Source: Undaria pinnatifida (taxonomy: Eukaryota; Sar; Phaeophyceae; Laminariales; Alariaceae). Taken from it: a DNA stretch of 64,000 bases. A program made the position numbers and the translations under genes. Below the pieces are notes generated by a model that was given only the letters and a program-made list of their open reading frames with translations, ran no database searches and was not told the DNA's origin. Every line of letters begins with the position of its first letter. Within the stretch, counting starts at the first letter, position 1. The stretch is from contig JABAKD010000004.1 of the NCBI GenBank assembly GCA_012845835.1, positions 6,863,765-6,927,764 on the forward strand, written 5' to 3'. This document shows, piece by piece, positions 3,649 through 47,403 of the stretch.

Positions 3649-3760
3649 CTCGTAGATGTCAAACAGCTCATCTCGATTGCGTTGACGAGGCGGCATCCCG
3701 CCGTCGCAGCCTTCGCCCCAAGACGGACCGTCCGGGGCGTATGTCGCGATCCATCTTCTC
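3649..3760 (-). CDS. PaO-like oxygenase, exon near the C-terminus
   Basis: This 112-bp minus-strand exon is one base plus 37 codons. It follows a gcag acceptor and ends GAG|GTACTT. It encodes RRWIATYAPDGPSW, then GGMPPRQRNRDELFDIYE. PaO-family proteins have near the C-terminus an aromatic W segment, a PP...R-x-E-L-x-D-x-Y/E stretch and then a CxxC tail, and this exon fits that region up to just before the tail. The preceding exon must end with two spare bases, which the 13322 exon does not supply, so one or more exons are probably missing between them. The downstream CxxC exon was not found. Assignment to the same gene rests on strand, order and motif. Confidence 0.65.
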
Positions 3761-4687
3761 CTGCGGTCACCACGACGCAAAATGGGCATGTATGTCGGGA
3801 ACTACGCATTACTCGCGACATGGTTTGAGCTCTTGACAGGTCGTTTATAGGCAAAATGGAATAGATCTGCCTATTCAGCACTATGTTGCGGCGTAGCTAC
3901 GTTCTCTACAACAGCGGCTTACCTATTGGATACTGTGACCTGGTGGATACTGTGTAATAGAAAATGTACATATCGGGTATCAGTGTCGTGACCGAACTCG
4001 TTCGGTCTCGCGTTGTTTTAATGCGCTCCAGCTCGTGCATGCTGCGATAGAGGTGAGCCATTTTGTTTCTAAGGCCCCTTCACTGGAGTAGCTTCAAATC
4101 TCAAAAACAAACAAACGATTCGGGAGGAATACGTATACTAGACTAAACGTTTTACCCGCGATGAACACATTCCATGGCCTAGCTATACAAACGCAGAATA
4201 CAGTGCAAACAATAACTCAAATCCCGAGGATTTTGGGCTAAGGAGCCCGGTCATTCCGAAACTATTTTGGGTTGCTCTATATATATCAGTTTTGTGTGGG
4301 TGATGGTATAGTCTAGAGCTTCGCAAGAGAGGAGCGCTCCGGGGAAAAGAAAGGGTGCCCATATCTCGTTCGGTAATGTTTTTCATCAAGCCTCTACAAC
4401 AGGCCAAAGCATTGCTTGTCAGGTTACGTTTTGGTTTTTTATTTGTCCCGAACTCGGCGGATGGGTGGGGTGTGTAAGGGCCCTTGCATGGTTAGTCTCA
4501 GACCGATTTCCATGGGGCCCTACTGCCACATGCGTTGCGAGTACGGGGTGTTGGATTGGGGGGAGGGGGAGTGCTCGTTATCGTGCATGTCCGCAGTCTT
4601 CAGACCATAGGCCTTTGCAAGCCTTCAATACCGGGACGGAGAACGATGGCTTTTCACTAAGCAAGTAGACATGTTTGTTGAACTAAT
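3761..4687. other. Intronic or flanking DNA with family B scraps
   Basis: No gene recognised. A decayed B-like end (GCATGCTGCGATAGAGGTG) lies at about 4039, and a B-like interior (GATTTTGGGCTAAGGAGCCC) at about 4220-4240. Confidence 0.5.
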
Positions 4688-4954
4688 GATCAAGGCTACG
4701 GTAGGGGGGGTACCCACATTTTCACTGGTGTGCTTCCGCCACTCGCACGAGTAGCTCTGTACCCCACGGATAAAACTTTCTAGGCACTTGTTTTGGCGCA
4801 GCTTAGATCACCTTTGCCTTGCGGATTGATTTCGTCAATGCAAACATGAAGAAAACGTAAGATCGCATAGTAACAAAGGGGTTACTCGCGCGAGTGACCC
4901 CCATTCACTGAAATAAAAGGCCGAAAAGGAGACCCCCCTACCGTAGCCTGGGTC
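4688..4954 (+). mobile_element. Family A MITE, intact
   Basis: Left end GATCAAGGCTACGGTAGG, right end CCTACCGTAGCCTGGGTC. It is flanked by exact TAAT duplications (4684-4687 and 4955-4958). Two palindromes, CACTCGCACGAGTAG and TTACTCGCGCGAGTGA, are inside. It closely resembles 38093-38361 and 59726-59994, suggesting a recent subfamily. Confidence 0.92.
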
Positions 4955-5809
4955 TAATCACGAAGCACCGTGAGGTGTTTTCCTGGCAGCATGAAGGGCG
5001 ACCTGCATCCTACTGAGAATCGGAGGTTGCAGTGAAACGCGCATCTTGAAAGTATTATTCTACCCCGCGGACATGTCGACAAACGTGCGTGAACTCAGCG
5101 ACAACTCTCTATTCCCGCCACACCGTCCTAAACGAGGCTTAAATGGAATCAGAAATATGTATCCTTCGATTTTATTCTACGTACCTGCCATCACTTGCGC
5201 AGCACGCCCCGCTTCTTCGGCGGTAAACGACGCACGGGTCCACGATGAGGTACTTTTGTTTTGCAAAGTGTTTTGGCTTGATGGGGCTCTTCAACTGATC
5301 GACCTATCTACACTACCCACTATCTCTGACATTTACTCGTTTTAATCTTAGCCCACATGGCGATTTGCAGTGGTTCGAAAATGGCGCTTCTCCTTCATGA
5401 GCTACTGATAGCTAATGATACACAGTTCATGCCACCCCAGCGATCGGCTCCCTGTCTATCTGAAACACGAGCTTTGCATCACATTTACTCAGTGGCATAG
5501 CACGCTATTCCATTGCCGTGATTCTCTAGCAGCTCCAAAAACACGGAGCACAGAATGGAATGGCCACTCAGGTTAGTGCCCCTGGGGGGCGGGCGGTGAA
5601 ATAAAAGATAGTTTAAATGTGTGACCCGTCCTGCCGGAGCCGTGGCGAGCTCTTCTACTCGGTCAACCGTCACTAACATTTGGTGTGCATTCCGAGCGTA
5701 GCACACGCAGCTGAGGTAACATGGTACCAAGGCAACGCTTAGTTTCAGGGTCATCTTTAAACGGTCCAAACAAAAGCCTTTAGGAAACCGATGCACCTAT
5801 CGGCACAAA
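4955..5809. other. No gene recognised
   Basis: Short ORFs without known motifs; no clear MITE ends or tandem repeats. Confidence 0.5.
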
Positions 5810-5904
5810 GTCGAACCACACGATGGGGGGGCGTACCCCTAGCTTCACTGGGCCGGGTTTTTACCACTCGCACGAGTAACCCCGTACCTCACGTGGACAA
5901 ATAG

Positions 5905-6152
5905 GACGCGTGCTACGATAGAATTGTGCAGCACATATTTTCTGAGGTTCCTCGATTTAGGGGCTTAAGAACTCTCGCCCAGAAACTGATTTGGGGAAAA
6001 ATAAGTCTGCTACCCCGGCTGAAAAATTCCATGGCTTAGGTACACGACGACAATCGTGCAAACAAATGACCTAGCTTGCCGACGATTTTGGGTTACAATA
6101 TAAGAACATATTTCAGACGAAAAGTGCTCTGCCTCTATGGTAGCACTTGCCA
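5905..6152 (+). mobile_element. Family B MITE nested in family A
   Basis: Left end GACGCGTGCTACGATAG, right end TATGGTAGCACTTGCC. Flanking tetramers are ATAG/ATAT (3 of 4 match). The interior has the family-B signature TTCCTCGATTTAGG, CATGGCTTAGGTACAC and CCGACGATTTTGGGTTA. Confidence 0.82.
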
Positions 6153-6292
6153 TATCAGTTGTCATGTCATTTTGGTGATTCCTTCGACGCATAGGTTACC
6201 AACCCATTCATTGCAAATTAACACACATCGCCAAATCTGTGAAGGAACAAGGGAGTCACTTGCGCGAACGATCCCGGGATACACTGAAAGAA

Positions 6293-6833: not shown

Positions 6834-6880
6834 AGAAGAAGACCGCAAAAGTTACCCCCCCCTACACCGCAGCCTCGACT

Positions 6881-7589
6881 TGCTCCCATTTCACGACGAG
6901 CACCATGTCGCAGCGTACCGTGTTCTGTTTCTTCGTTTAGCTTGCGGTACGTCAGTCGAAAATGTTTTGAAAGTTCGCTTACTTATGGTGGACGATTAGA
7001 GACAAGATCACCCGCGTGTCCTGAATAACCCGACTGAAGAAAGATGTAGGCATCCCTACTACACTTTTACCGCAGTCTTTCGCAATTCAGATGGCCCGTA
7101 AGGCCGAAACACGTTACCCGAACAGTGATTTTAGGCCTGTCGAAGCGCTCATCATGACACATTTTCCTTTGTACTCACATGGAAAGTATCCCCTTGTCGG
7201 CCCCGGTGGGTGTGAACACCGCTCTTGTGTAGTTAGAGCTGCTGTACCCAGCGGAGGCTAAGATTTTTTCCTGCCAAGCGCCGTGCAAACAACAAACTAG
7301 TTTCGTGAACGACAAACGGGGAGCGGTGGGGTCGGATCGTTCCTGCAGCAGTATTCGTAGCGGTTGGAAGCCCGGTTACACCGAACAGGGTGGTCATGGT
7401 TGTTTAGACGCTGTTTCTTCTATATCGGGAATCTGTGTGTGTGTTTGGGCGTCGGCCAGGCCCACCTACGACGCGTGCGGCATCAGCTACGAAAAATAGC
7501 ACTTTTCGGCCTTGAGAATTTTCTTCTGACTTGACGAGGCTCTTAACCTGTTAGTAAAACCGTGAGAGTGTAACATATCTGCACATGGT
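6881..7589. other. No gene recognised
   Basis: No motif-bearing ORF, transposon end or repeat was recognised. Confidence 0.45.
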
Positions 7590-13082: not shown

Positions 13083-13364
13083 CCGACGACAATGTGTAAG
13101 GAGCTTAGTCTCAATCGAACGTTCTTGGCACAAAAACGTGTGGGCCCTACTATATCCCCTGCACCCCCCCGTTTACTCACCCGACTATGCAGAAGCACCA
13201 TATCCTGGTTAAAGAACTTGTGACCGACGACAATGTGTAAGGAGCTTAGTCTCAATCGAACGTTCTTGGCACCAAAACGTGTGGGCCCTACTATATCCCC
13301 TGCACCCCCCCGTTTACTCACCTGACTGTGCAGAAGCACCATATCCTGGTTAAAGAACTTGTGA
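13083..13364. repeat. 141-bp tandem duplication including part of a PaO exon
   Basis: CCGACGACAATGTGTAAGGA starts at 13083 and again at 13224. The two units differ at only a few bases. On the minus strand each unit carries the codons for GHKFFNQDMVLLHS and the GTGAGT donor, then intron sequence, so the 3' half of the exon and its donor are duplicated downstream of the complete exon. Confidence 0.9.
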
Positions 13365-13409
13365 CCGAACATGTGTTGGAGCCAGTCCGGTATGTGGCTG
13401 GGCTTAATG
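13322..13409 (-). CDS. PaO-like oxygenase, exon with the W..H...QDxxLL motif
   Basis: The minus strand reads (I/K)PSHIPDWLQHMFGHKFF, then NQDMVLLHSQ, and ends at a CAG|GTGAGT donor. The PaO domain has near its end a P-x-W...H...D/QD-x-x-L-L-H-x-Q-E stretch, which this exon matches well. The acceptor is either gtgcag|C (exon to 13409, frame used here) or ttaag|C (to 13402); the first has the better upstream pyrimidine content. If 20823-20921 ends in phase 0, the second acceptor would join it in frame directly. A tandem copy of its 3' half follows at 13181-13222, and decayed copies lie upstream at 13985-14500. It may code or be part of a locally decaying exon cluster. Confidence 0.72.
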
Positions 13410-13464
13410 CTGCACTCATGGCACCAACGAGAACGGCAAAGAAGGCACATACGTGGGAAACGAA

Positions 13465-13761
13465 GACCGAGGTTACTATATAGGGTTTTTGCACTACCGA
13501 GTTTCCACACCTCGCACGAACGAGTGAACTGTGTACAGCCACACTGAACCTGTTAAAACATGCATATATTTAGGCGAAATATTTGACGAACCCTAGCTCA
13601 CCATTTCACTGCGTATTCGTAGAGAAAGAAATTGTACAAGATTATGACAGATTAGGAACGCAAAGGAACAGGAGGGTTACTCGCGCGAGTGACGAAGAAG
13701 TCACAGGAAAATAAAACGTTAATCAAGAACCCCCCCCCCCCTTCCCATCGCATCCTTGGCC
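13465..13761 (+). mobile_element. Family A MITE between exon copies
   Basis: Left end GACCGAGGTTACTATA, right end ATCGCATCCTTGGCC. Palindromes CTCGCACGAACGAG and TTACTCGCGCGAGTGA are present. It separates the intact PaO exon from its decayed upstream copies. No exact target duplication. Confidence 0.75.
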
Positions 13762-13767
13762 AGCACG

Positions 13768-13780
13768 ACAACAACAACAG

Positions 13781-13814
<34 letters not shown>

Positions 13815-13876
13815 AGCAACAACAACAACAACAACCACAACAGCAACAACAACAACAACAACAACAACGACAACAA
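13768..13876. repeat. (CAA/CAG)n trinucleotide microsatellite
   Basis: About 35 CAA/CAG triplets lie directly beside the right end of the family-A element. The poly-Asn, poly-Leu and poly-Val ORFs here are artefacts of the repeat. Confidence 0.93.
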
Positions 13877-13984
13877 CGTCTAGTACGTGGGGATAAAAAG
13901 CATTGTTGTTTCGAAGAATCGGATGCAACGCCAATACAGTATTAGGGCATTAGGCTGGGTGCGCGTGTTGTAGAAGAAGTGTTT

Positions 13985-14500
13985 GCAGAACCTTTGACAG
14001 AAGGTGTGTTGAATGAAGCCAGCCTGGCATGTTGTTCGGCCTCTTGCCACACAAGGCAACGGTAAAGAACCATAAAAAGTTACAGACTGGAAAAGTATTG
14101 TTGTTGAAAAAAGGTGCAGGGTGAGTATTTTCGGGTGGGGCGAACGCTACTGTAAGCGGTGCGCATTGCATTGAAGAATCACCACATTCTCTGGTCAAAG
14201 AACCTGTGACCGACTTTGTGTTTGAGCCAGCCCGGCATTTATGTGGCTCGTCTTCAGGCAACACACATGGCAGCAACAGGAACGACAAAGCAGGTACAGA
14301 CCGGAAATGACACTGCTGCTGTTAAGGAAAAGGGCGCAGAATAACTGATTGAGCGTAGGACGACGACTATTATTATTTGTACTGCAAGGGGGTGTACCCG
14401 GGGCGTTCACAAAGCCGTATCGTCTCCTGGGTAATATGAAGATCCTGTGACCGAACATGTGTTGGAACAAAGTCCGGTATGTGGTTGGGCTTTAGGCCGC
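13985..14500 (-). pseudogene. Three decayed copies of the 13.3-kb PaO exon
   Basis: Three segments (about 13985-14050, 14198-14262 and 14426-14492) repeat the minus-strand exon and its upstream pyrimidine-rich flank, spaced about 230-240 bp apart. Anchors on the plus strand are CTGTGACCGA, GTGTTGGA or GTGTTTGAGCC, GTATGTGG and CATGGCAACA. The 14.4-kb copy has one extra base after the codons for HIPD, shifting frame. The 14.2-kb copy has an insertion in the same place, and the 14.0-kb copy is more diverged (NMPGWLHS is readable). None has a matching GTGAGT donor. They look like a local exon-plus-intron amplification that has decayed. Confidence 0.65.
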
Positions 14501-14732
14501 GCACATGGCAACAACGGGAACGGCGAAATTGGTACAGGGTGTGTGCGACAATAAAGGTGCTGCACCTCTTTCGGCTAAACTATTTCTGAATGACGGACCT
14601 CCTTAACCAATTCATAAAATCGTCGTGATTTCAATCTTGTTTTGCTATAAATGTGGCCGCATGTCTGGGCTACACGGAATTGTTCGTCGGAGATGTTGCG
14701 CTGTACCTTATTTTTCATATGTACGTGGGTTA

Positions 14733-15007
14733 GACGCGTGCTACGATAGAGGTGCACCACATTCTCTTTTCTGAATTTCTTCAAATTGGGAGCTCAAGAC
14801 CTCTATCAAAACCTGATTTAATAAGAAGAGCCAAAACATAACTGCTACCGGCTGAAAGGTCCCGTTGCCTCGGTACACGACAAGAACCATGCAAACGAAA
14901 TCGCCCATTAATTTCCGACGGTTTTGGGTGAAGGCGCCCCCTCTCATTCATTCAGAAACCGCTTCAGACGAAAAAAAACGTGCTGCCTCTCTATCGTAGC
15001 GCGCGTC
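14733..15007 (+). mobile_element. Family B MITE
   Basis: Ends GACGCGTGCTACGATAGAGG and CTATCGTAGCGCGCGTC. The interior has TTGGGAGCTCAAGACCTC, ACTGCTACCGGCTGAAAGG and CCGACGGTTTTGGGTGAAGG. A further B scrap in reverse lies just left (14560-14700). Confidence 0.85.
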
Positions 15008-15020
15008 TCACGGGGTAGGG

Positions 15021-15150
15021 CATAGATAGCTCTTTGAGTGAGGAGCTTAAACCCGAAAAAAAGCACAGGGTACGCTTCTATCGGACATAGGTAGCTCTTT
15101 GAGTGAGAAGCTTAAACCAAAAACAGGTTACAGGGTACGCCTCTGTCGTA
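15021..15150. repeat. 65-bp tandem duplication
   Basis: CATAGRTAGCTCTTTGAGTG begins at 15021 and 15086. Both units continue with AGCTTAAAC and CAGGGTACGC. Each ends in a B-like TIR scrap (TCTATCG, CTGTCGTAACGGGCGTC). Confidence 0.8.
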
Positions 15151-15319
15151 ACGGGCGTCGCAGACGGGAAGATACACCACTGCAATGCTGTTGTATGTAT
15201 GTAGCAATAATATCATGTTGGAAAACGTTCTTCGCGTCCAGCGAATAATAGGGTCGCACTAACATAGTTCCGGGTGCATCGCTCAACCTACCCATCAAGA
15301 AATTTCATGGCCAAGATGA

Positions 15320-15591
15320 GAGCAATCCCACGGTAGGGTTGGAGCATGGTCAGTTCAGTCCCTGAGCTCCTCACATGAGGAACTCAATATCTCACCCGAT
15401 GCTACATGACTTTGAAGGCATTCGGTCTCACAACCCGACCAAGCTTCTATGCCTTAGTCCAAACATATAATGTGCTCGTGAAATTACGTTATTGACCGGC
15501 AGTTCATCACATGAGGGACTCAATCGCCCAGGGGCTTTTTGGCGCAATCCTACAACTGCAACCCCTACCGTGGGATGACTCATGACCAAAG
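15320..15591 (+). mobile_element. Family D MITE, intact
   Basis: Left end GAGCAATCCCACGGTAGGG, right end CCCCTACCGTGGGATGACTC. Exact ATGA duplications flank it (15316-15319 and 15592-15595). It is nearly identical over long blocks to 57392-57653. It sits at the very left edge of a family-A copy (15594-15846). Confidence 0.92.
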
Positions 15592-15593
15592 CT

Positions 15594-15846
15594 ATACATT
15601 GAGGGGTTACCTTTATGACGGGTTGTTTTTGCAGTGGCTTGAGGACACAGGCGCGAGTGACCTCCCGGTGGTTCTCTTGCGGTCTCAAGCATTCGTGAGG
15701 TTTTTATGTTCGCGATATGTGTACGCGATGGAGTGGTATAAGCTACGCTCCGCCAAAACAAAGTCACCTAAGTTCAGCTCTTTCCTCCGTGAGATACAGA
15801 ATCACTCGTGCGAGAGGTGAAAATCCCCCTTACCGTGGCCTTAGTC
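15594..15846 (-). mobile_element. Family A MITE abutting family D
   Basis: Left end GACCAAAGCTATACATTG, right end TTACCGTGGCCTTAGTC. The interior has GTGGCTTGAGGACACAGGCG, GATATGTGTACGCGATGG and CACTCGTGCGAGAGG. With the D element removed, the flanks read AGAT/AGGT. Confidence 0.7.
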
Positions 15847-16234
15847 AGGTACATTATTACCCAAATACATGTATATTGCATTTTGGATGTTAGGATCCAT
15901 GTATGGACATCGGGATCCATGTCTTTGCTGATGTGCAGTAGAAAAAGTAATCATATTAGACTAATGAAGATGCGGGGAAATACGACTTGCGGCGAGATTA
16001 TGTTTGCCCTTCTCGCCGAGGCACACTTGTGTCTAACATGCATCTTCGGGGCGTTGACTACTTTGTGTAAGATAAATAACTTACCATCATATAACGTATC
16101 TGAGATAGTTACACAGTTGCGAAGAAACACAAGAGGTGTTCCGACGACGTTTGCTTGTTCCTCGCCGCTAGTCAGAAATACGTCGGCCGCAACCTAAGCG
16201 TTACACTTCTCCATCGTTGAACACGTGTATATAT

Positions 16235-16370
16235 TAAAACGTATAAATGCACTCCAGCTGTGAGATCGAAGATTTCGTCGAAACGCATCTTAGCAAGCTG
16301 CGTGTGATACTCCGATCGCGCGTGTTACTGGGTGTGTGTCCTCATTAAGGGCGTAGGTCGGCGACTACTC
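16235..16370 (+). repeat. Dispersed repeat H, copy 1 (inverted pair)
   Basis: Matches 20095-20225 in reverse complement: GCACTCCAGCTGTGAGATC, GATACTCCGATCGCGCG and TGTCCTCATTAAGG occur in both with few changes. There is no recognisable coding content. Flanking 15847-16234 and 16371-16589 hold nothing else recognised. Confidence 0.75.
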
Positions 16371-16589
16371 TCGGAACTACAGTGTAGCTTGTACCAGGGT
16401 CAACAAGGTGATGTTAGTCAGTCTGTGCGCGGAAATTATATAACCCATTTTTGAGGGGGACAAAATCTGAGAGTGTCTACAGAAGGGATGAAAAACAACG
16501 TCCCTCTCGCGCCCGTAACCTCCATCGACACCCGTGTGTTCACTTTCCTCGTTGCCCCGAACATTCCGATTAAGGCCATACCGTACTCT

Positions 16590-16844
16590 GACGCATGCTA
16601 CGATAGAGGTAGCAGTTTTCGTCTGAAACGGTCTCTGGCTGACGTGGCTCCTTAACCCAAAATCGTCGGGAAACAAACGACATTTTTTTTCATGATTCTC
16701 GTTGTTTACCTAGCTAGGCCATTGGGATGTTTTCGTCCGGTAGCAGTGTTGTTTTCCTCCAAATCAGTTTTTGGGAGAGGTCTTAAGCTCCCAATTTGAG
16801 GAAAACTCAGAAAAAAGTGGTGCACCTCTATAGCAGCACGCGTC
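16590..16844 (-). mobile_element. Family B MITE
   Basis: Ends GACGCATGCTACGATAGAGG and CTATAGCAGCACGCGTC. Typical interior: TCCTTAACCCAAAATCGTCG, TTTTGGGAGAGGTCTTAAGC. Confidence 0.85.
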
Positions 16845-17297
16845 TATCGTAGCTTGGTATATATTACATACGTAAGGTATGGGGTTCGTTAGTTTTTAGG
16901 GACTCGATTTTCAGCGTATGTATCGGAAAAGTCGCGCAAGTGCCCACCTGTGCGTTGTTTCTAAATTTCACGCAACTATATACGCCCTGCCGGGAACGAC
17001 TGGTGCGCTGCGCCAAATCTGTCAGAGAGGAAGTCCTCTGCGTACGGTAGAAAAAGCACTTTTGGGAGCTAAAGTGGGTCTTGAATGACGAGTCGCAATG
17101 ACACAAAAAACTTCAGAGAACGTCATTGTTGCTTATGGCGACATGTATATATGATGATTCTATTTCTTTTTCAATGCGTGTTTTTAATCGGAAAGATTGC
17201 ACTTTCATTTTTCTTCTTCCTCAGGTCAGTTTTGGTTTGCCTCGGGGGTCAAATACCTCCTCGAGAAACGGGACACAGTATGCGCTAAATTTTTTTC

Positions 17298-17838
17298 GAC
17301 AGAGGCCACGGTAAGGGGGCATACCTCTATGATTTTCCTCCGTGCCTTTACCCCCCGCTCGAGTGATTCTGTATCTCACGGACGACAACACGTTAGGCGG
17401 CCTGACGCATGCCTCGATGGAGGCAGCGGTTTTCGTCTGAAATGTATTCTGAATGACGGCACCCCCCTTAACCCAAAATCGTCGGAAAAAAAAACGCCAT
17501 TTTTTTTAATAAGATTTCTTGTTGCGTACCAAGGCCATTCGGTGTTTTCATCCGGTAACACTGTTAGTTTTCACCGAACCGGTTTTTGGGAGAGATCGTA
17601 AGCTCCTGAATCGAGGAACATCTTTTCAGACGAAAAGCAAAAGTGGTGCGCCTCCATCATAGCATTCGTCACCTGTTTCGGCGCAGCGTTGCAAAGCATT
17701 CCACCGCGCGACCGCATAACATAAGGAGAACAAAGCCTCACGAAAGCTTGAGGACGCGCCCGGTGGTCACTCGCGCGTGTGCGGTCGAGCCACAGCTGAA
17801 AACTACCTTAACCGTGACCCCCCTCTGCAGCCTTCAAC
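17298..17838 (+). mobile_element. Family A MITE carrying a family B insertion
   Basis: Left end GACAGAGGCCACGGTAAGGG, right end CCCCCCTCTGCAGCCTTCAA. The family-B copy at 17404-17670 interrupts the CACGTTAGGCG...TGTTTCGGCGCAGCG segment common to family A. Confidence 0.78.
17404..17670 (-). mobile_element. Family B MITE nested in family A
   Basis: Ends GACGCATGCCTCGATGGAGG and TCCATCATAGCATTCGTC. Flanks GCCT/ACCT match at 3 of 4 bases. Confidence 0.8.
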
Positions 17839-18234
17839 TACCATACTATCAATAGTATTTTTTTACCGCAATATCGAAGCAGCTTTGGGCTACTCTGCCC
17901 CTCCTCACCCCCCAGGAATGCGAATGACGCGCTTCGCTTCGGTGTTCCCTTCCTTAGGAGCGATGAACATCTGGATTTTGAAAGACATGCGCAAACGGCC
18001 GACGAACAATGCAGCGGGTGGGGGGAGGGGGGGCGGGTACTCAGGTTGTGCATGGCAGTGGTCGTATGACCATAGAGCCTCGCATCCCTACCATTGCCGG
18101 TAACGTTGGATTTCACCAACCAGGCAGACATTTCTTGCAACAAGCAGCGCGAAGCACCGTGAGGTGTTCGGCGCAATGCAGCGGGGGGGGGGGGGGGTGT
18201 ACTCATTCGGTGCTGGCCTTAGAGGGGTGCTGCC
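17839..18234. other. No gene; G-rich runs
   Basis: Two G-rich runs (18016-18036 and 18182-18198), each preceded by AATGCAGCGG, suggest a short local duplication. No coding motif. Confidence 0.5.
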
Positions 18235-18734
18235 ATAGTACGAAAAGTAGTATATTATTAAGGTACAGCTATTTTTGGCTACTGATGTTTTTTGAATGAC
18301 AGTGAAATCGACGGAATTCCGTTCCCATTTTGCGGTTTATAATGTCTTTTTCTGGTACCGAGGCCATGGGATTTCCCATCATTTCAGGTTGCACGTTTAG
18401 AATAGTTTTTTCTCGACATCAGGTTTTGGGCGGGGAATACGTATCGATAAGTGACGCCGTGCTACGATATAGGTAGCAGTTTTTTGCCTGAAATGGTTTG
18501 TGAATTTGACGGTGCTCTCGTTAACCCAAAATCGTCGGAAAAAAAAAAAAAAAACTTCTTTTTTTCGCATGTTCTCTCGATGTGTGTACCTAGGCCATTA
18601 ATCATTGGAGTTTTCATCCGAGAGTAGCAACTTTATTTTTCTCCCAACCGGTTTTGGGAGAGACGTCTTGAGCTCCCATACTTCAGTGGACATCTCAGAA
18701 AAAACAGTGGTGCACCTCCATCGTATCACGCGTC
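18235..18734 (-). mobile_element. Two family B MITEs, the first truncated
   Basis: 18453-18734 has both ends (GACGCCGTGCTACGATATAGG; CCATCGTATCACGCGTC). 18235-18452 is the reverse-oriented beginning and middle of another copy that stops at GTTTTGGGCGGGGAATACG, where the complete one begins. A third scrap (AAGCGTGCTACAATAAAGG) is at about 18795. Confidence 0.72.
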
Positions 18735-18899
18735 AAAAAAGATGCCACAGCATAAAAAACGGTGCACAAGAGTGCCGTAGCATGAGTCTTGAAAGCGTGC
18801 TACAATAAAGGTACTGTACCTCTTTTGGGCTAACCTTTTTTCTGGATGACGGTCTCGTGAACATACTCATAACCTACTAACAACCCGTCAAAAGTATCT

Positions 18900-19559
18900 T
18901 CGGAAAGTTTATATTGGCTTGCGATATCATGTGTTTTTATTGTAAAATACCTATAGTCTAAAAGGCTACTCGTATGTGGGTTTGTTCATTGGGATGAAAA
19001 GTCGGTTGACTCAAGAACGGTTAGTTGTGAGGCATAGAACTCCACAAGCCGCACTCCTCAGAAGGCAAGAAAAAGAGCCAGTGCACCTGTACCGTGGCAT
19101 GTGTCCTGAACTCACTCACCATGGACCACACGCATCCCTTTCATCGAGACGGGGAGCAGCCGTTCATACTCCGGATAGAGACACCTCTATGAAATTGGGC
19201 GCTCAGCACGTTTCTTCCGTACATTCCATTCCAAAACGAATTTTAATTTTTACGATTTCCTTCCTTTTCGGTGGTCATTTTTTTCCCTTGGAAGAGCCAC
19301 ACGGGAGGGGGGGGCTCAATTCGCGGTCCAAATAGCGGTAGCTTACACTTGTTTGGGTGTCGCGACGGACACTTCGACATGACAATAGAGGTCTGGCGCC
19401 ATGTCTTTTTTCTGGTGGCGGGCGCGTGAAGAGGTTTTCATTCCCCACAGCCAAGCGCTGATTCGAATGGAAACGCTATCCGGTCATCAACTATCCCACG
19501 GCTTGGGTATTGCGAGAGCACACGTGGATGGCAATTGCAACGCTGACATCAAAGTTTCG
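18900..19559. other. No confident gene; one weak exon candidate
   Basis: On the minus strand, 19120-19186 follows a TTCATAG acceptor and ends CATG|GTGAGT, open for 22 codons (RCLYPEYERLLPVSMKGM then RVVH). It lies between PaO exons at 20.8 and 13.3 kb but shows no certain family match. B-like ends occur at about 19083-19105. Confidence 0.3.
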
Positions 19560-20822: not shown

Positions 20823-20921
20823 CTGGCAACAGATGACGCGGCACCAGCCTGGGCGGGTCGGTACACCGTACAGGCCGAACTTCAGCACGCTCCCGTCCTC
20901 GATGTCCGTGTCGAGAATCAC
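20823..20921 (-). CDS. PaO-like oxygenase, PaO-domain exon (PTRPGWCR)
   Basis: This 99-bp minus-strand exon is 33 codons in phase 0 and opens right after a GGCACAG acceptor. It encodes VILDTDIEDGSVLKFGL then YGVPTRPGWCRVICCQ. PaO-family proteins have a P-T-x-P-G-x-C/S-R strand after the F-x-P-P/F-A-P-C segment, which is the preceding exon here; the junction reads ...FFAPCL|VILDT... with no gap. Third positions are strongly G/C, unlike the surroundings. The 3' border is weaker: TGCCAG is followed by GCACGT, so either a rare GC donor or a nearby GT donor is used. Confidence 0.78.
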
Positions 20922-27593: not shown

Positions 27594-27674
27594 CAGGCAA
27601 GGGGCGAAGAACTTCAGGGAGCCGCCCACCGCAGGCCCAATGAACGGCGAGCTGCAGAGAAAGGAGAACCCGTC
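27594..27674 (-). CDS. PaO-like oxygenase, exon with the DGFSF and FFAPC motifs
   Basis: This 81-bp minus-strand exon is 27 codons, preceded by a TATCGCAG acceptor and ended by CTG|GTGAGG. It encodes DGFSFLCSSPFIGP then AVGGSLKFFAPCL. PaO-family proteins have, after the iron-ligand region, a G-F-x-V/F segment and then a F-x-P/A-P-C strand, matched here. It joins the 20823-20921 exon in phase 0. The preceding exon must continue the glycine codon opened at 35439; it was not found. The frame stays open about 30 codons upstream, so the exon could begin earlier, but that part lacks G/C-rich third positions. Confidence 0.78.
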
Positions 27675-29788: not shown

Positions 29789-30510
29789 ATACCTTTCTAA
29801 GACCGAGCGTCTCCAGCTCGATGGTTACGGGACCGGCCATGTCGCGTTCCCCAATAATGCCTGTGGCGACACAAAAAGACGGACGACAAAAGGGGAGGGG
29901 TACTAATTTCATGCATAGCCGTGATCGCATGACCACAGAGTGTCGAAATGCATGTGCCAGTACAGGTCTGGCACGTATGTGCGCCGGTTTCCTATTTCAT
30001 TGTTTTATTTCTTGGCGGAAGTATGACTTGCCTCAGCTAGAATGATGTATCTGTGTATCCCTTTTGATTCGTTGAAATTGTTCCCTGGGGCATTTTTCCA
30101 CTGCAAAATGACCGGATCCTGTTCTGTGACCACGGACTTGATCATGCGAGTTAGTGTGGGAACAACAACAACAGAGCCGACTATGAGAGGGGAGTCCGGG
30201 GAGCACTACAACATGTACCGCCCCAGGAGTGACTTTGAGCAACCCCTCGGATCGGACGCGGTGATGCAATCCATGGCTGGGGTCTCCACTAAGAGTGTCC
30301 GGACGTGTGTCGCGACAGGGGGTAATACTTTGGGCGGTTGAAACGATTAAAGCTTCTGGATAACATAGAACTACCGAGCGTGTTGCATGAATGCCGTACA
30401 TATTATCTAAATCGCATCCGCTCTCTATCCCTAGCCCTTGGGGTCGATCACGTTCGCCTTCGCCTGAAACCAGTTACTTGGAAGAGGTATGTGGCTCCTT
30501 GGCCCCCGTT
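29789..30510. other. No confident gene; coding-like stretch near 30.2 kb
   Basis: The plus strand is open 30042-30341 with G/C-rich third positions around 30210-30320. The minus strand is also open and reads DPSHGLHHR, reminiscent of the iron-ligand exon, but it lacks suitable borders. Neither was assigned. Confidence 0.35.
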
Positions 30511-31186: not shown

Positions 31187-31269
31187 TCACACGACCTTGA
31201 AATAATAGACGTGCTATTAAAATCAAAAATCTCTATCGCAGACGTTGTATGTATGACGGGGCTTCTTGA

Positions 31270-31425: not shown

Positions 31426-32059
31426 CGCTAAACCGAATTCGTCAGACGTTTTACCCTCGTTTTGCAGTACGTGTGAAATCAAATACGTAGGCCATGGGAT
31501 TGTTGCTTCTAGTTTTCTCCACGATCAGTTCGGCCGAAGTATAGAGCTCCTTTGCACGTGAGCAGTCTCAGAAACTAAAACTGGTCCGACTTCAACCTCC
31601 GTAATATCCGTCTATCCAATCGGCATTGCTGGGAGTCCCTGACTCTATCGGGCTATCGGTATTCACTGAAACACGCTACGGTTTAAGCCACTCCTCCTTT
31701 GTTATTGCGCTATTATCTTGAGAAGCCCTGAACATCTCACCCCAGCTTAACTTTGGACGTCTGGTAATGTAGACGTAGCACTGTTTTGGTTTTTGTTTTC
31801 TTCTCGTTAATTTCGGGACACCTTTTAACCCACCATCGATAAAAGTTTGTTCTTCAGTTTTTGTTCTGTTTTATACTTCGACCACGATAATTTTCATGGT
31901 CGGTCGCCCCGGTGGCGTATCATGTCATCCTCGAGCCTGCTCTAGGTCAGTTTCGTGAGCTCCAATCCCCCCGAGTGCATTCTCGTTAAAAATCGTGGGG
32001 ACTTTTTGTTGTGCACAAAAATTGATTTGAGGAAAGCGAAAAAGCTTGAGTTTGCAACA

Positions 32060-32215
32060 CTCGATAAACAACCGGCGAGCAGAGGGATTGCTGAACCCTA
32101 TGCGCGACAAAATTGAAGGGCAAGGCGGGGAGAAGGGACGACAATTGTGACCACGGCTTGTCCAGAAGCTGGAATGAATATGTGTGAAAAAAATGAGTAA
32201 AATAAAATAACATGT
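32060..32215 (-). repeat. Dispersed repeat I, copy 1
   Basis: The minus strand matches 54340-54470 on the plus strand: TTCTGGACAAGCCGTGGTCA, a C/T-rich CCTTCTCCCC block and TCGCGCATAGG. Origin unknown. 32216-32966 beyond it holds only B-like scraps (32300-32460) and no gene. Confidence 0.7.
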
Positions 32216-32966
32216 TTGCCGGCTTGTACTTGTGTAGCTATTTTAAAATGTATTCGTGCGGGAACCTTGTCAGGAAATAAGTTTTGCGCGTTTACTGTAC
32301 CATGCTCCACGGTAGAGGGGGGCCATTTTTACTGGCGCTTTTGGTCTTTCTGGGGCTCCTAACCTCATGAGGGGCTCTAGTTACACCTCTCTCGAACATG
32401 TTTTTGTGGAAAAGCCGAAGTGCTACCCGATGGCCAATCCCGTGACCTTGGTATAGAAGATGAAAATTACTCCGAAACATGACCAAATTCATTGACGATG
32501 TTGACTTAATGTTACGGAGTTGTGTCATATCTAGAGTAGTAGATACATGCAGGTACGCTCCTAAAACGATCCGAGTAGGACCAGATGTAATGTTTTGCTG
32601 CTACATGATTTGTGTCCCTTAGGTCTCAAGGTGTTCACCCGTCTTACGTGTGGCGGGGGATTTGATGTAATTCCCCGTCTCCATGCTGCCAGTTGGAGCC
32701 TTGACCTGTACCAAGGCTTGGGCTAAGAACGAGGAAATCTACGAGACGAAGCTATACAACACGAAGCTGTGCCTACCAGCACCGACACCTCCTGTGCCCT
32801 TGCCACTCGGCAGCGCTCTGACAGACGGCGTCGACATCAGGACGGTTAAGGAGCCCACGTTATTCCCACAGAACACGTTTCAGCCCAATAGCGTAACCTT
32901 TCGCAAAGCACGTGTGTCTGAAATCGTGCGCCTCCTAGTCACGTAACGAAATGTGTAACGGGTGAT

Positions 32967-33017
32967 AACACACTTCGACCAAGGCTATGGTATTGTAGTA
33001 CCATTGCAGTATCATAC
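32967..33017 (+). mobile_element. Family A left end abutting the LINE
   Basis: GACCAAGGCTATGGTATTG and GTATCATACCC form the first 50 bp of a family-A element, which stops where LINE-like sequence begins. Confidence 0.6.
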
Positions 33018-34690
33018 CCAGGAAGACGCGAGGAAACGGGTCCGTTCTGCTCCGGGCGGTCGTGATCAACGGCAAGCCTGGAAGGCGACCACTAAACAGC
33101 TGAAACGCACGCGGGCGGAAGCTGTACAGAGGTTCCTGAAAGCTTACGTTAGCCAATTCGAAGGGTGTATACGAGAAAGTGATCAATTTGGCTTCGACAC
33201 ACACATAAAGTGGAGATGTATGTGGAAGGGAAAAGGACGTGCAACTCGCTGTGCATGAAGGACGAGGAAGGTCGATTGCTGCGAGATAATGCCCTCATTC
33301 GCGAGCGGTGGGTGACGTGGTTTCACAAACAGCTCAACACCAAGTGGCCGACCCTTGACCCGAGCATCGTGGACGAGCTTAACCAGTGGCCCCCGTGCAG
33401 ACCACTGGACGATGTCCCGTCTAAGTAGGAAGTAGAGGAGGCGATCCGTGCGTTGGCAAACCGAACGGCGGTAGGGCCAGATGGTTTCCCGGCCGAGCTC
33501 TTAAAGGCTTTGGCGGAGACGAAGGATAATTCAACACTCTCGGAAAGTTCCACGATATAATCTTCTCTGTGTGGGTGGGAAGTGGCGTGCCGCAACAATG
33601 AAAATATGCAACGATTAAAGTGCTTCACAAGAAGAAAGATCGGACTGAGTGTGGCAATTATCGTGGCATCTCCCTCGTGGTTCACGCCGGCAAAGTAATC
33701 TTCAAAGTCATCGCGGATCGCCTCGGTGACTATTGCGGACGTGAGAATATTCTACCGGAGGAACAGTGTGGGTTCAGACCCCAACGCTCGATGGTTCACA
33801 TGTTGTTCGTAGCACGACGACTGCAGGAACTGGCGCGGAACAAGGACACCCCGCTTTATGGACCTCACTAAAGCATATGACTCCGGCGACCGAACCCTTC
33901 TGTGGGATGTCCTTGCTCGTTTTGGCGTGCCCCCAACAATGCTCCCCGTCATCCGCCAATTCCACAACGGCATGCAAGCATGCGTGCGGTTGGATGATGG
34001 AGAGTGCTCGGAAACGTTTGACGTGGGGCAAGCTCTGGATGCGTGCTCGCGCCCCTGCTGTTCAACATGTTTTCACGACGGTACTGCGTGTGGCCGACAA
34101 ACGCTTCCTCGATAATGCAGCCATCACGGACAACATGTTGCAGCTCCAACGAAACAAGGAGAAAGGCGGGAAGAAGGTCACTTCACGCGCAGGCAAAGTC
34201 GACGGGTGGAGAGGGAAGGAGGGGGAGGAGATGCAGAGACTGTGGGGTATGCTGCACACGGACGATGCGGGTATAGCATCGCGATCATGAGAAGGGCTGG
34301 AGAGGATACTGACTGTGAGCGTGACTGCATGCTCGGCGTTCGGGCGTACGGTCTCCGAGGCTAAAACAGAGATGATGTGCCTGCAAACCAAAGGCGGGCG
34401 GAAAGTGTCGTTCACAATCACTGCAGCCGGCCAGGCGTACAAACAAACAATCGAGTTTGTGTACTTGGGCGGGGCTATCACCGCAGACAGAGACTTTAGC
34501 ATTGAAATAACGCGGCGTCTCCAGAGGACCTGGGCGTACTTCCAGCGGTACAAGATAGAAATATATGATCGCCCGGGAGTGCGCTTACGGTTTAAGGTGC
34601 GGTTGCTGAAAGCCGAGGTGGTCGAGACACTAATTTACGGTCGCATGACGTGGAGCCTGAACAAGCCTGACTATGATAGGCTACGGCGGG
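33018..34690 (+). pseudogene. Decayed LINE (non-LTR retrotransposon) reverse transcriptase
   Basis: Fragments in several plus frames follow the order of a non-LTR RT: a charged linker (33018-33258), an AVGPDGFPAELLK box (about 33468-33507), [17 protein letters not shown] (from about 33656), [12 protein letters not shown] (about 33758), DLTKAYDS (about 33861), then FVYLGGAITADRDFSIEITRR and the YDRPGVRLR thumb-like region (34315-34690). LINE RTs copy their RNA at a nicked target. This copy is dead: in-frame stops at about 33426 and 33557, frameshifts near 33860 and 34040, and the catalytic YADD-type box reads HTDD (about 34256). The endonuclease domain is missing at the 5' end and the 3' end is cut off inside the domain after RLRRVHLYDR, where unrelated B-like sequence begins. 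It sits in a presumed PaO intron on the opposite strand. Confidence 0.92.
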
Positions 34691-34806
34691 TTCACCTCTA
34701 TGATAGGCTACGACATCATACGGTAGAGGTGCAACATCTTTTACCTAGAGCTCCTCGCAGTTGAGGAGCTCTACACCTCATATAAAAATACATGCACATA
34801 TATATA

Positions 34807-35087
34807 GACAAACGCTACAGCAGGGGTGGGGGGGGTACTTGCTTTTTCACTATCGGATCTAAGCCACTGGCACGAGTGACTCTGTACCTCTTGTACCCAA
34901 GCACGGTAGGTGGCTAGTTTGGCGCAGGTGTAGCTAGCCACACTATTGGAGATGCATATCAAAATATTTATACAGCACGAAAGCCAATGGCCGCAAGAAA
35001 CAGGGCGGTCACTCTCGCGAGTAAGTGACCCCTAGTCGATGCAAAAAAAGGCCCCTAAAAAGGGACCCCCCTACCGTAACCTTGGTC
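34807..35087 (+). mobile_element. Family A MITE, diverged
   Basis: Left end GACAAACGCTACAGCAGGGG, right end CCTACCGTAACCTTGGTC. Palindromes CACTGGCACGAGTGAC and TCACTCTCGCGAGT. Flanks TATA/TAAT. A (TA)n-rich stretch follows. Confidence 0.75.
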
Positions 35088-35438
35088 TAATGTATATATA
35101 TAGATAGATGTATATATATATGTATATTTTTTTGAAAACCGAAATTGCGCTCCGATAAACATACCCGTGACCGGAGTACACAGAAAACAAACATACCTGG
35201 TATTGGGGTTTTCTTTAATGGATGGCATTCCGACGAATTCTGTTTAAGAAGCTTGGTCGTTCGGAACCAAAAGTGGTGTTCCGACGATTTCTGCATAAGA
35301 AACATGGTGTCGTTCTGAAGACAAAAAACATGCGAAAAATGTCAGACCTCTACCGTGACACGCGTCTATCTGAACACACGGTTGAAAATGCCCAACTCCT
35401 ATCGTATCGCGTGCCCAACACCGAGAGGAGTGGCTCAC

Positions 35439-35469
35439 CGTGGTGGGAGATGGCAGCGTGCGATGGATC
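35439..35469 (-). CDS. PaO-like oxygenase, 31-bp exon with the iron ligands
   Basis: The minus strand reads GAT CCA TCG CAC GCT GCC ATC TCC CAC CAC G between a GGGAAG acceptor and a GTGAGC donor, giving DPSHAAISHH plus the first base of a glycine codon. The preceding exon (41480-41671) ends ETFLENVM, so the join gives N-V-M-D-P-S-H-A-A-I-S-H. That is the N-x2-D-x2-H-x4-H mononuclear iron site of PaO-type oxygenases, which usually continues H-G. The conserved content and matching phases make chance unlikely despite its size. Family-B sequence begins about 25 bp beyond the donor. Confidence 0.8.
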
Positions 35470-40920: not shown

Positions 40921-41479
40921 AGTGCTAGCACCTATACCGTGGCACGCTTTGAAAAATCGATATACCTGGCGTCCTCCTGTCTTTACTGACCATATCTTGG
41001 TCCTCATTTCAAGAATGTGTTCCACCAATACAACATGCTGATCCATTGCACCACGCAGGGCGGGTAGGTTTCCGGTAGAGAAGCCCGAAGAAAAACGGAA
41101 GTCCAGCCTAAAAGGCGTACCTACCATAGTAGTGCACGCCCGATTCAGGAGATCTCGGAACTAGCAAATCTTTTCACTACCTCCGCTCTTGTCTCAGGTC
41201 CGGTACCATGTAGACCGAAAAATTGGAGTCACAAACACGTGGGGTTTTACTTCATTTTGGTATGGCAGTATCATTGGACGAGGTGCAGAAACTAAAAAAT
41301 ATAGCTCGTGTTTCTCGGCTGTTTCTCGTGTTTTGCGCTTGTGGTCTTAGACGCTTGTGGGTTTAGAGCACCCCGCCGCCTACGTCCAGGGAAGCAAAAC
41401 TTTTTCGGGGCGTCGAAACCATTATTACGGTTACTCCGGGATCCACTGAAGCTCGCGCGCAGACCACGTTCAAACTCAC

Positions 41480-41671
41480 CATAACATTTTCCAGGAAGGT
41501 TTCCCACGAGTAAGGAAGATCTCTCTGGTAGAAAGGACAGGCAGTTACTCTTCCCGACTCGAGGCCCTCGGTGTCACCAAGTTCTGGAATCAGTGGCAAT
41601 GGGCTGAGGGCGCTTTCGAGTCCAGAATCTTGACCGTTCTCCCCCCACACCCAGATGAGTCCTTGCACCAC
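41480..41671 (-). CDS. PaO-like oxygenase, exon from GLIWVW to ENVM
   Basis: This 192-bp minus-strand exon is 64 codons in phase 0, preceded by TTTGTTTGCAG and ended by ATG|GTGAGT. It encodes VVQGLIWVWGENG, an acidic loop, ACPFYQRDLPYSWETF and LENVM. In PaO/Rieske oxygenases a G-x-x-W-V-W/F strand follows the Rieske domain, and a segment ending W/Y-x-x-x-x-E-N immediately precedes the D-P-x-H iron ligands; both features are present at the right ends. It joins 42417-42537 in phase 0 upstream and the 35439-35469 exon downstream. The acceptor has a good T-rich tract. Confidence 0.9.
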
Positions 41672-42416: not shown

Positions 42417-42537
42417 CTGGGTGGGATAGACCTTCGGGCACGCGGCGACCTGTGCCGAGTCCCTCCCGTTGTTCTCGCTCTGAGGTATGTGAGAACAACT
42501 GCCGTCACTGTCGAAGCGCCACCCGTGGTACGCACAC
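42417..42537 (-). CDS. PaO-like oxygenase, second Rieske exon (CAYHGW)
   Basis: This 121-bp minus-strand exon (one base plus 40 codons) lies between a CATCGCAG acceptor and a CAG|GTGAAG donor. It encodes CAYHGWRFDSDGSC, SHIPQSENN and a stretch ending CPKVYPTQ. C-x-x-H-G-W-x-F with a following C...I-P-Q is the second half of the Rieske [2Fe-2S] fold in PaO/Tic55/CAO-type proteins. The first base completes the serine codon left open by the previous exon, giving S-L-S-C-A-Y-H with 17 residues between His and Cys of the two ligand pairs. The Y-P-T/V tail leading into G-L-I-W-V-W is also typical. Confidence 0.93.
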
Positions 42538-43814: not shown

Positions 43815-43939
43815 GAGAGGCTACCGTCTTTCTCCACCCTGCCCTCTGTCAACGGCGCGGCTCTGTGGGGGCATCTGTCATCGAACGTGGCCCACTCTCC
43901 TTTATCGTCGCACCAGACCACGAGGTGCTTTCCGAGCAG
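43815..43939 (-). CDS. PaO-like oxygenase, first Rieske exon (CPHRAAPL)
   Basis: This 125-bp minus-strand exon opens after a TTTCGAGGCAG acceptor and ends CTCTC|GTGAGC. It encodes LLGKHLVVWCDDKGEW, then ATFDDRCPHRAAPLTEGR and VEKDGSL, with two spare bases. L-L-G-K-x-L-V-x-W, D-x-C-P-H-R-x-A-P-L-S/T-E-G-R is the diagnostic N-terminal half of the Rieske domain in the PaO family; Cys and His of CPH are cluster ligands. It joins the WYPV exon upstream in phase 0 and the CAYH exon downstream. The frame stays open upstream to a Met at 43996, but the G/C-rich coding character starts at the acceptor. Confidence 0.95.
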
Positions 43940-45225: not shown

Positions 45226-45289
45226 CTCTGGGTCATGCTCTCGGAGGGTCGAAGGACAACCAGGTTCGGCAGGAATTGCTCACACGACA

Positions 45290-45552: not shown

Positions 45553-45875
45553 CATTCGACACATGCTAAAAAGTAGGGATGGACCGTTTTCTCTCAGTCG
45601 TTCTCTCAATTCGAGGAGCTCTATACCTTCCCTTTTTTTGGACGGAAAGTGCAATCCAGTATTATATGGGAAAATTGGCCGTATTTTTCAAAACCAAAAT
45701 CTTGCTCCGAGGATTTTGGGTTATAACCACTTCACTACCGGAATCGATTTTGGGGGACAAATTTGCTAGAATTCAGTATGGGTAGGGATTTCGGGGCTCT
45801 ACAGGGGTTGAGGAGTCTCGCCATTCCGAGCTATATTTATGCCGAAATCATCTGCCGGTTTGTCCTGGTCTCAAC

Positions 45876-46153
45876 GAGTGCTGCGATAGGGGTCCTAAAA
45901 GGTATACCGTTTCCTGGCTAAAATGTTTTTTGAACGACGAAGCTCGTTATCAACCCGAAATCGTGGGCATGTCACTCTTGTTGAAAATTAAAAATGATTG
46001 TTTCGTATACTTGGAGGCGATGGGTGTGTTCGTCGGGTTGCTCTTTCAGTTTGGTCAAAGTCTGATTTTTTCCTGTCAATAGAAGTTAAAAATTGCCCTC
46101 AAAATCAGGTTATGAGCCTCGGAAAACAACGGCGAACCTCTACCGTAGCGGGT
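45876..46153 (-). mobile_element. Diverged family B MITE
   Basis: Left ACGAGTGCTGCGATAGGGG, right CTCTACCGTAGCGGGTGCC. The interior follows the reverse B plan (TTTGAACGACGAAGCTCG, AACCCGAAATCG) but is strongly diverged. A similar old copy starts at about 46318 (GCGCGTTGCTACGATATGG). Confidence 0.6.
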
Positions 46154-46604
46154 GCCCTATATTGAGACGAGCCATATCAGTTCAATATGTTCAGAGTACC
46201 CAAAACGTGCGTTGACGCCATAACGTTAGGCGTCAGTGAACGAATTCTGCGGCACGGGTGTGCGCAACGATTTTCCGGAGGGCTCTCTCGCCTGATGATC
46301 TCTAACATTTCAAACGCGCGTTGCTACGATATGGAGGCTGCACGTTTTGGCTGATTTGTTTTTGGTGGAAAATGACGTGTCTCTCCTTAACTCTAACTCT
46401 TCGGAGTTAGATTCTGTAATGTATACTGGACGTTACCCTTTCGCTGCACAAGCGCAATACAGCAGACCATGATGGGATTGTTTTTCGCAGGTGTAGAGTC
46501 CATGGTTTTGCTCAAAATCAGTTTCATGGGGTGGGGGACATACAGCTCCACAAGTGAAGAGCCGTGTAGAAAAAAAATAACGATGCAATTCAGTACGGTA
46601 GAGC

Positions 46605-46844
46605 GACGCGGGCTACGACAGAAGTGTCACTTTTCGGTCTGAAACGGTTCCTGAGAGAAAGGGCCCCTTGCCCCAAAATTGTCTGAAATAGGTCATTTCG
46701 TTTGGTCGTGTACCTAGGCCATGGGATATTGACATCCGGTATATTTTTCTCCAAATCAGTTTTTAGGAGTGGTCTTAAGCTCCCAAATTGAGGAACCTTT
46801 GCACAAAAAACAATGGTTGGTGCACCTCTATCGTAGCATGGGTC
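46605..46844 (-). mobile_element. Family B MITE, intact
   Basis: Ends GACGCGGGCTACGACAGAAG and CTCTATCGTAGCATGGGTC. Exact GAGC duplications (46601-46604 and 46845-46848). A D-like fragment lies at 46905-47060 (GGGAGCTCCTAACGCGAGGA). Confidence 0.9.
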
Positions 46845-47346
46845 GAGCATTCGTCCTGACCCCCCCCCCAAAAAAAGACAAGCGCTATCTGATGGTCTGC
46901 CTGGGAGTCACTCCATACTGGTCTGGCAGAATTTTCTGGGAGCTCCTAACGCGAGGATGACTCAGTATCTCGCCGTCACCATCACCTGAAATATGACGGC
47001 GAAGGCGTTCGTGTGCGCAGTCCGACCAATACGTCTATGCGCTAGTAGTCCAAAACCAAACATGCCCGTAAAAGCATCACACTAACCGGTGCTTCCTCGC
47101 TGAACAAGCCTAAACCCGCCGGAAACGTTCACCCATAAATTGCCCTTACCTGTCGTCGGATGACCCCTCGGCATACGCTGAATGGGTTCATAAAAAGCAA
47201 AACTCGTTGGGTGGATTTTGTGGGTTGTTGAGCGCGCTCGAAAGGAAGTAGAGTTGGCGTAAAATGTCACCTTGTCATCTTGTCATGCGAAAAACTTCAA
47301 TCTCTATAGTAGCACGCGTCAGCGGGAAATAGGCTAAAAGACTCAC

Positions 47347-47403
47347 CTCTACAGCATGTGCACGTCCGGTGTCGGTGTTCTTCTCGGCAAGCACAGGGTA
47401 CCA
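47347..47403 (-). CDS. PaO-like oxygenase, exon with the WYPV motif
   Basis: This 57-bp minus-strand exon is 19 codons in phase 0, reading WYPVLAEKNTDTGRAHAVE between a CCGACACAG acceptor and a GAG|GTGAGT donor. Members of the PaO family begin their mature domain with an aromatic-W-Y-P-V segment, then about 10-20 residues to L-L-G-K; the join to 43815-43939 gives ...HAVE-LLGKHLVV. The acceptor has a poor pyrimidine tract and the frame is open further upstream (ARDVPTQ before W), so the exon may begin earlier. The start codon and any plastid presequence must lie above 47403 and were not recognised. Confidence 0.82.

Follow-up and report, generated by a model that had tools for sequence, protein, structure and literature searches.

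A putative PaO-kind Rieske oxygenase gene with exons dispersed over about 52 kb in the kelp Undaria pinnatifida

Introduction

Can short coding segments scattered among kilobases of intron still amount to one working gene? The question arises in a 64,000-nt stretch of the brown alga Undaria pinnatifida (C48:6863765-6927764, in a genome of 511 Mb in 68 contigs; hereafter the window), where a first-pass annotation had recognized, on the minus strand, a gene for a Rieske oxygenase resembling pheophorbide a oxygenase (PaO) and spread over about 44 kb. Here we report that these segments very probably belong to a single intact nuclear gene, gene D, with 15 located exons over about 52 kb, predicted to encode a Rieske [2Fe-2S] and mononuclear-iron oxygenase of the PaO kind.

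Results

The model of gene D comprises 15 coding exons of 31 to 192 nt on the minus strand, 13 within the window and two to its left (Table 1); exon numbers run from 2 to 16, number 1 being reserved for a putative upstream transit-peptide exon. Spliced together, they form a coding sequence of 1,413 nt and 470 codons with no internal stop. All 14 introns present AG acceptors, with GT donors in 13 and a GC donor after exon 9, and phases match at every junction. The gene extends over 51,968 bp from the first located coding exon to the stop, with introns of 745 to 6,672 bp (mean of the 14, 3,611 bp). Exon lengths and phases recur in three paralogues, designated B, C and F2, the differences being only multiples of three.

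The first-pass annotation had listed nine minus-strand exons in order, and each of the eight positions it gave (3649, 47403, 43815, 42417, 41480, 35439, 27594 and 20823) coincides with an exact exon border of the final model; on the basis of its PaO match, we take the ninth exon to be 13322-13409. The list was nonetheless incomplete, since the window also contains exons at 29793-29860, 17909-17970, 7179-7270 and 682-780, and two more exons lie to its left, so that the 44-kb span, correct in its borders, falls short of the full located gene. The proposed AG/GTGAG borders are found at most of these exons, with GTGAG donors in six of nine (the others being GTGAA, GCACG and GTACT), whereas introns of up to about 9 kb were an overstatement, because the 9.6 kb between 13322 and 3760, presumably the largest intron meant, consist of two introns, of 6,051 and 3,418 bp, around exon 12.

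The first five located exons (2 to 6) splice in frame and rebuild both iron-binding motifs, C-x-H-x17-C-x2-H and N-x2-D-x2-H-x4-H, as had been predicted. The Rieske [2Fe-2S] motif takes the form CPHR..CAYH with x17 spacing, and the joined protein matches PF00355 at 8.5e-24; an early hand-joined query of 226 residues, made of four exons and an upstream stretch later dropped, had given a Rieske match of 7.1e-23. The mononuclear iron motif, NVMDPSHAAISH (residues 163-174), is assembled across intron 5-6. The PaO domain, PF08417, matches the joined protein at 63.2 bits (2.6e-17), above the curated cut-off of 27, over residues 220-316 and model positions 1-86 of 89, compared with 37.5 bits (2.6e-09) for the exon 11 open reading frame (ORF) by itself. 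These profile matches bear out the family originally proposed; a Pfam scan of nine other ORFs in the window listed a match for one, below its cut-off. Toward the C-terminus, the protein carries HTKGCTSC at residues 378-385, and the same HTxxCxxC pattern is present in C, F2 and the protein of cyanobacterial locus L050. A C-terminal CxxC is a redox motif of the PAO/TIC55/PTC52/CAO group.

Among the exons added to the initial list, exon 12 was revealed by comparing the window with two long-intron paralogues, and exon 14 was located through the HTxxCxxC motif. Phase arithmetic called for two more exons, each of a length equal to 2 mod 3: one in the interval from 27674 to 35439, the other in that from 13409 to 20823. 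We sought both as AG-exon-GY candidates of the required length in B, C and the window, alongside two wrong-phase control sets. For exon 7 (IIGERDMAGPVTIELETLGLRK), the B-D pair reached a total score of 47, whereas the two controls scored at best 1 and 0, and counterparts are also found in C and F2. Gapless comparison for exon 10 (MFIAPKEGNTEAKRVIRIPG) at first returned mostly a repeat common to B and D; the exon is supported by a clear B-C pair of 21 residues in which phase and borders are correct. At the 5' end, an open frame upstream of exon 2 (starting MRLTPLATS), first taken as exon 1, was rejected because the acceptor in B and F2 lies directly before TGG and because E, a further paralogue, does not preserve the upstream frame.

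Table 1. Positions of the exons of gene D and of related features. Exon positions are window coordinates unless a contig is given; iE, independent E-value of the match to a profile built without gene D.
Feature	Position	Strand	Length (nt)	Profile iE	Remarks
Exon 2 (WYPV..AVE)	47347..47403	-	57	0.075	First located coding exon; TGG immediately follows the acceptor, same position in B, F2
Exon 3	43815..43939	-	125	2.8e-22	Rieske motif, first half (CPHR)
Exon 4	42417..42537	-	121	2.6e-18	Rieske motif, second half (CAYH)
Exon 5	41480..41671	-	192	2.2e-28	Ends ..ENVM; Asn of mononuclear iron motif
Exon 6	35439..35469	-	31	0.39	Mini-exon DPSHAAISHH(G); Asp and both His of mononuclear iron motif; same 31-nt exon in B, C, F2
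Exon 7 (IIGERDMAGPVTIELETLGLRK)	29793..29860	-	68	no match at iE<1	Absent from earlier coordinates; phase-required, then found
Exon 8 (DGFSF..APCL)	27594..27674	-	81	no match at iE<1	
Exon 9 (VILDTD..ICCQ)	20823..20921	-	99	2.7e-08	GC-AG intron follows
Exon 10 (MFIAPKEGNTEAKRVIRIPG)	17909..17970	-	62	no match at iE<1	Absent from earlier coordinates; least certain exon
Exon 11 (IPDWLQHMFGHKFFNQDMVLLHSQ)	13322..13409	-	88	1.5e-05	PaO-domain core
Exon 12 (EKILAS..GILSM)	7179..7270	-	92	1.6e-07	Absent from earlier coordinates
Exon 13 (RRWIATYAPDG..LFDIYE)	3649..3760	-	112	5.8e-09	
Exon 14 (QHTKGCTSC..ASFGW)	682..780	-	99	1.5e-07	CxxC motif; left of first-pass range
Exon 15	C48:6861755-6861877	-		0.14	Left of window
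Exon 16	C48:6859200-6859262	-		0.048	Left of window; ends in stop
Two-copy tandem duplication	13083..13368	-			Period 141, 97% match; end of exon 11, its GT donor, adjoining intron
Locus A	C48 6.627-6.652 Mb	+			Examined at two exons only
Locus B	C48 6.672-6.690 Mb	-			13 exons reconstructed in DNA examined; exons 2-14 in 16.3 kb
Locus C	C48 6.788-6.843 Mb	+			14 exons reconstructed; exons 3-16 in 50.3 kb
Locus D (window gene)	C48 6.859-6.911 Mb	-			15 exons
Locus E	C48 6.999-7.067 Mb	+			Read in part
Locus F1	C44 0.464-0.483 Mb	+			Examined at two exons only
Locus F2	C44 0.631-0.686 Mb	+			14 exons reconstructed, exon 10 not found; exons 2-16 in 54.9 kb
Cyanobacterial PaO-like loci	L050; L051; L052				Calothrix membranacea FACHB-236; Nostoc linckia FACHB-104; Tolypothrix sp. 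FACHB-123

An intronless protein encoded at three cyanobacterial loci matches residues 1-470 of the query, its best segment being 35-36% identical, and the alignment passes all 14 gene D junctions with gaps of at most eight residues. These relatives represent three of 43 pattern matches; an earlier single-sequence scan had confirmed none of its 10 candidates. We then searched 4,342 ORFs of the 84 kb around the gene with a profile of the three cyanobacterial proteins and B, C and F2, from which gene D was excluded. The profile yielded 18 matches at E<=10, and the 12 with iE<1 were all on the minus strand and collinear, corresponding to 12 of the 15 exons. None of the three controls gave a match at iE<1; at E<=10, the reversed sequence gave 1 match and the two shuffles 6 and 3. 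The profile is not wholly independent, since comparison with D had led to the B, C and F2 models.

When the genome was searched at the protein level, a query that included the later-dropped upstream stretch gave 64 matches at E<=10, and a second search gave 56 at E<=0.01. Grouped by position, the matches define seven loci of the PaO-like kind (A, B, C, D, E, F1 and F2), with more distant matches on C34, C33, C50 and elsewhere. Loci A to E lie in one array spanning about 440 kb (C48:6.627-7.067 Mb) with dispersed exons and strands alternating +,-,+,-,+. No kelp PaO array was seen in the titles and abstract openings of the best-ranked open-licence literature. On a tree of the seven paralogues and one cyanobacterial protein (106 columns), B and C grouped at 90/91 and four of the five inner branches were open. 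Several features of the family are worth recording in their own right. A GC-AG intron follows exon 9 not only in D but also in E, B and F2, and another follows exon 11 in B and F2, C having GT at both places; F2 contains a 12.4-kb intragenic tandem duplication (C44:657-681 kb) in which exons 9, 11, 12, 13 and 14 are each present twice; and a distant Rieske match at C50:113310-113813 (minus strand; 34-35% identity) lies in an apparently compact open frame of 327 aa.

The ratio of nonsynonymous to synonymous substitution rates (dN/dS) is low between all pairs compared, with an overall range of 0.145-0.364. Between D and E, over 223 codons of six exons with 189 identical residues (E exon 4 being left out), it amounts to 0.21 by the NG86 method and 0.22 by YN00; over the three codon positions, the changes number 24, 13 and 51. 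The corresponding NG86 and YN00 values are 0.27 and 0.17 for D-B, 0.36 and 0.17 for D-C, and 0.20 and 0.145 for B-C; pairs with F2, taken without its exons 10 and 11, gave NG86 values of 0.20 (D-F2), 0.16 (B-F2) and 0.19 (C-F2). Such low ratios argue against a dead copy.

The introns are rich in one motif, CGTGCTACGATAGAGG, of which the window has 52 occurrences when up to three mismatches are allowed, against 0.42 expected. Opposite-strand pairs of the motif 60-400 bp apart number 20, a count in which some pairs share a copy and the pairing has no control, and 15 of them span 232-291 bp, a spacing that looks like that of miniature inverted-repeat transposable element (MITE)-like elements. Motif density reaches 1.01 per kb in the window part of the D introns, 0.88 in the last D introns and 0.91 in those of C, with 0.24 and 0.37 in the flanks. 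The description of the introns as MITE-filled is partly borne out: the motif is abundant, but repeats recognized by comparison with other DNA examined cover only 38% of the 45,496 intron bases of D in the window, a lower bound, versus 25% of the right flank. A general intron preference of MITE-like motifs was considered and found unsupported: the motif is dense in D and C and sparse in compact B (0.12 per kb), and F2, at 0.44 per kb with 0.43 and 0.00 in its two flanks, is not above its right flank. Densities at loci L031, L032, L033, L041 and L042 were 0.00, 0.10, 0.30, 0.00 and 0.00 per kb.

Other repeats were also observed. Positions 33090-34700, in intron 6-7, hold a repeat with translated segments up to 88% identical to C44:634162-635769 in an F2 intron; it is retroelement-like by eye, and two ORF pieces from it gave no Pfam match. 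A second repeat, at 19930-20226, is shared by the introns that follow exon 9 in B and D and has a further copy in F2, at C44:650755. In the tandem duplication at the end of exon 11, the period is divisible by three and neither copy interrupts the frame; splicing at the second donor would thus add 47 residues in frame.

Discussion

The open frame, the phase-matched introns, the cyanobacterial match, the collinear profile matches, the exon structure of the paralogues and the low dN/dS together suggest that gene D encodes what looks like a working PaO-family Rieske oxygenase rather than a set of pseudo-exons, and the original proposal of one PaO-like gene with long introns is upheld by its phases and splice sites, its cyanobacterial collinearity and its constraint relative to the paralogues. 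Several observations weigh against this interpretation. The model was built from genomic sequence, and dN/dS constraint is an average and not proof that D is expressed; moreover, dS is high between D and B, C and F2 (0.9-1.8), and YN00 gave no values for the three F2 pairs. A regular-expression search for the true first exon with a start codon gave eight candidates in D, one in B, none in F2 and one in E, with none in common. Exons 7, 8 and 10 have no profile match at iE<1, and a profile of the cyanobacterial proteins alone gave six matches at that threshold, five of them exons in order and one out of order (41045-41080, iE 0.6), while one shuffled control gave a match at 0.47. The C-terminal hydrophobic stretch, a candidate transmembrane segment, is moderate to weak, with a mean hydropathy of 1.87 over 19 residues (434-452) versus 2.41 in the cyanobacterial protein. 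Exon 10 appears to be the least certain exon: its D copy was picked by place, AG/GT borders, length and weak likeness, and ranked third among the D candidates; the true-phase and wrong-phase sets were both topped by the repeat common to B and D, so that controls scored equally high; and candidate comparison across the paralogues did not find it in F2.

The segments in the window could instead be pseudo-exons, left by a duplicate that has decayed and lost splicing or translation while another paralogue works. The existence of six further PaO-like loci, including a more compact one, and the duplication of the 3' part of exon 11 with its donor would be in keeping with such decay, and compact intact paralogues had been named in the first-pass annotation as a sign of it. 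B is indeed more compact; its exons and phases, however, are those of D, and D is open throughout, its 470 codons showing no stop or frame break and its 14 introns no lost splice site; together with the D-E ratio of about 0.21 and the distribution of changes over codon positions, this renders decay very improbable. Even less probable is a division into two or more shorter transcription units, such as one gene for the Rieske part at the 5' end and another for the PaO domain at the 3' end. The long introns, the roughly 15 kb or more that separate the Rieske exons (3 and 4) from the PaO-domain exons (8 to 12), and a model derived from genomic sequence could accommodate it, yet phases agree at every junction, one cyanobacterial ORF spans both halves and three paralogues keep the same order.

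The substrate leaves more room for doubt. A PaO-kind oxygenase acting on something other than a chlorophyll catabolite, for instance a sterol or another plastid compound, is a minority possibility that deserves some weight: aromatic and sterol oxygenases are among the solved-structure matches, obtained with an early incomplete query, and among the NCBIfam matches, and family expansion could accompany new substrates. The NCBIfam matches nevertheless extend over portions of the Rieske half and score far below their cut-offs, while the PaO domain, HTxxCxxC and the cyanobacterial relatives point to the plastid tetrapyrrole group. We thus favor a chloroplast-type oxygenase, putatively derived from cyanobacteria and of the chlorophyll-breakdown (PaO) kind. 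As a working gene, D would have its pre-mRNA spliced across all 14 introns and a transit peptide encoded by a putative upstream exon; the protein would sit at a plastid membrane, receive electrons from ferredoxin, relay them via its Rieske cluster to the mononuclear iron, and oxygenate a tetrapyrrole in chlorophyll turnover. The large introns may have expanded through repeat insertion, MITE-like elements included, after the exon structure of the family was fixed.

More speculatively, a kelp-type lineage might have multiplied one cyanobacteria-derived PaO-like oxygenase to at least seven genes that share an exon pattern, five of them in the 440-kb alternating-strand array, with introns inflated separately by MITE-like repeats and copies acting since on different substrates of chlorophyll a/c turnover. 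Gene D points to an enlarged PaO family in this genome, which would be relevant to chlorophyll disposal in plastids of the brown-algal type. In practical terms, a gene scattered at the limit of legibility, with a 31-nt exon, introns of up to 6.7 kb and a GC donor, appears intact and can be rebuilt through phase arithmetic and paralogues.

A close counterpart is the cyanobacterial PaO-like Rieske oxygenase, which matches the 470 residues of D in full and collinearly and, at L050, shares its iron motifs and HTxxCxxC; it differs in having no introns and, at L050, a stronger C-terminal hydrophobic segment. For plants, the excerpts of the sources cited here describe PAO, CAO, TIC55 and PTC52 as ferredoxin-dependent proteins that combine a mononuclear iron domain with a Rieske cluster, with a C-terminal membrane domain in PAO and a function in chlorophyll breakdown for PAO and TIC55 (PMC6006212). 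Gene D shares with this group (PAO/ACD1, TIC55, PTC52 and CAO) the Rieske cluster, the mononuclear iron domain and the PF08417 domain, a likeness drawn at the domain level and not a placement nearest to any one of the four. From these features we infer that its product is a plastid-membrane oxygenase of the PAO/CAO/TIC55/PTC52 group.

Among kelps, excerpts of genome reports give Saccharina japonica a mean gene length of 12.5 kb with a mean intron of 1.8 kb in one assembly (PMC11836290) and 9.6 kb with introns of 1.06 kb in another (PMC4421812), and long intronic regions are described as frequent in Laminariales genes (PMC12116465). Gene D is about four times the former mean length, with a mean intron twice as long, and because long introns have already been described in kelps, its exon dispersal falls in the upper tail of a known pattern; the gene is real and ordinary in kind, though long even for such a genome. 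For ORF scans, it holds that such dispersal would conceal the gene, but the annotation of kelp genes draws, in the available part of one report, on transcript and protein evidence (PMC11836290). RNA-seq in Saccharina latissima, likewise known to us in excerpt, found four chloroplastic pheophorbide a oxygenase genes differentially expressed (PMC6881991), which is consistent with an expressed multi-gene family, the likeness being one of gene name and not of genomic structure.

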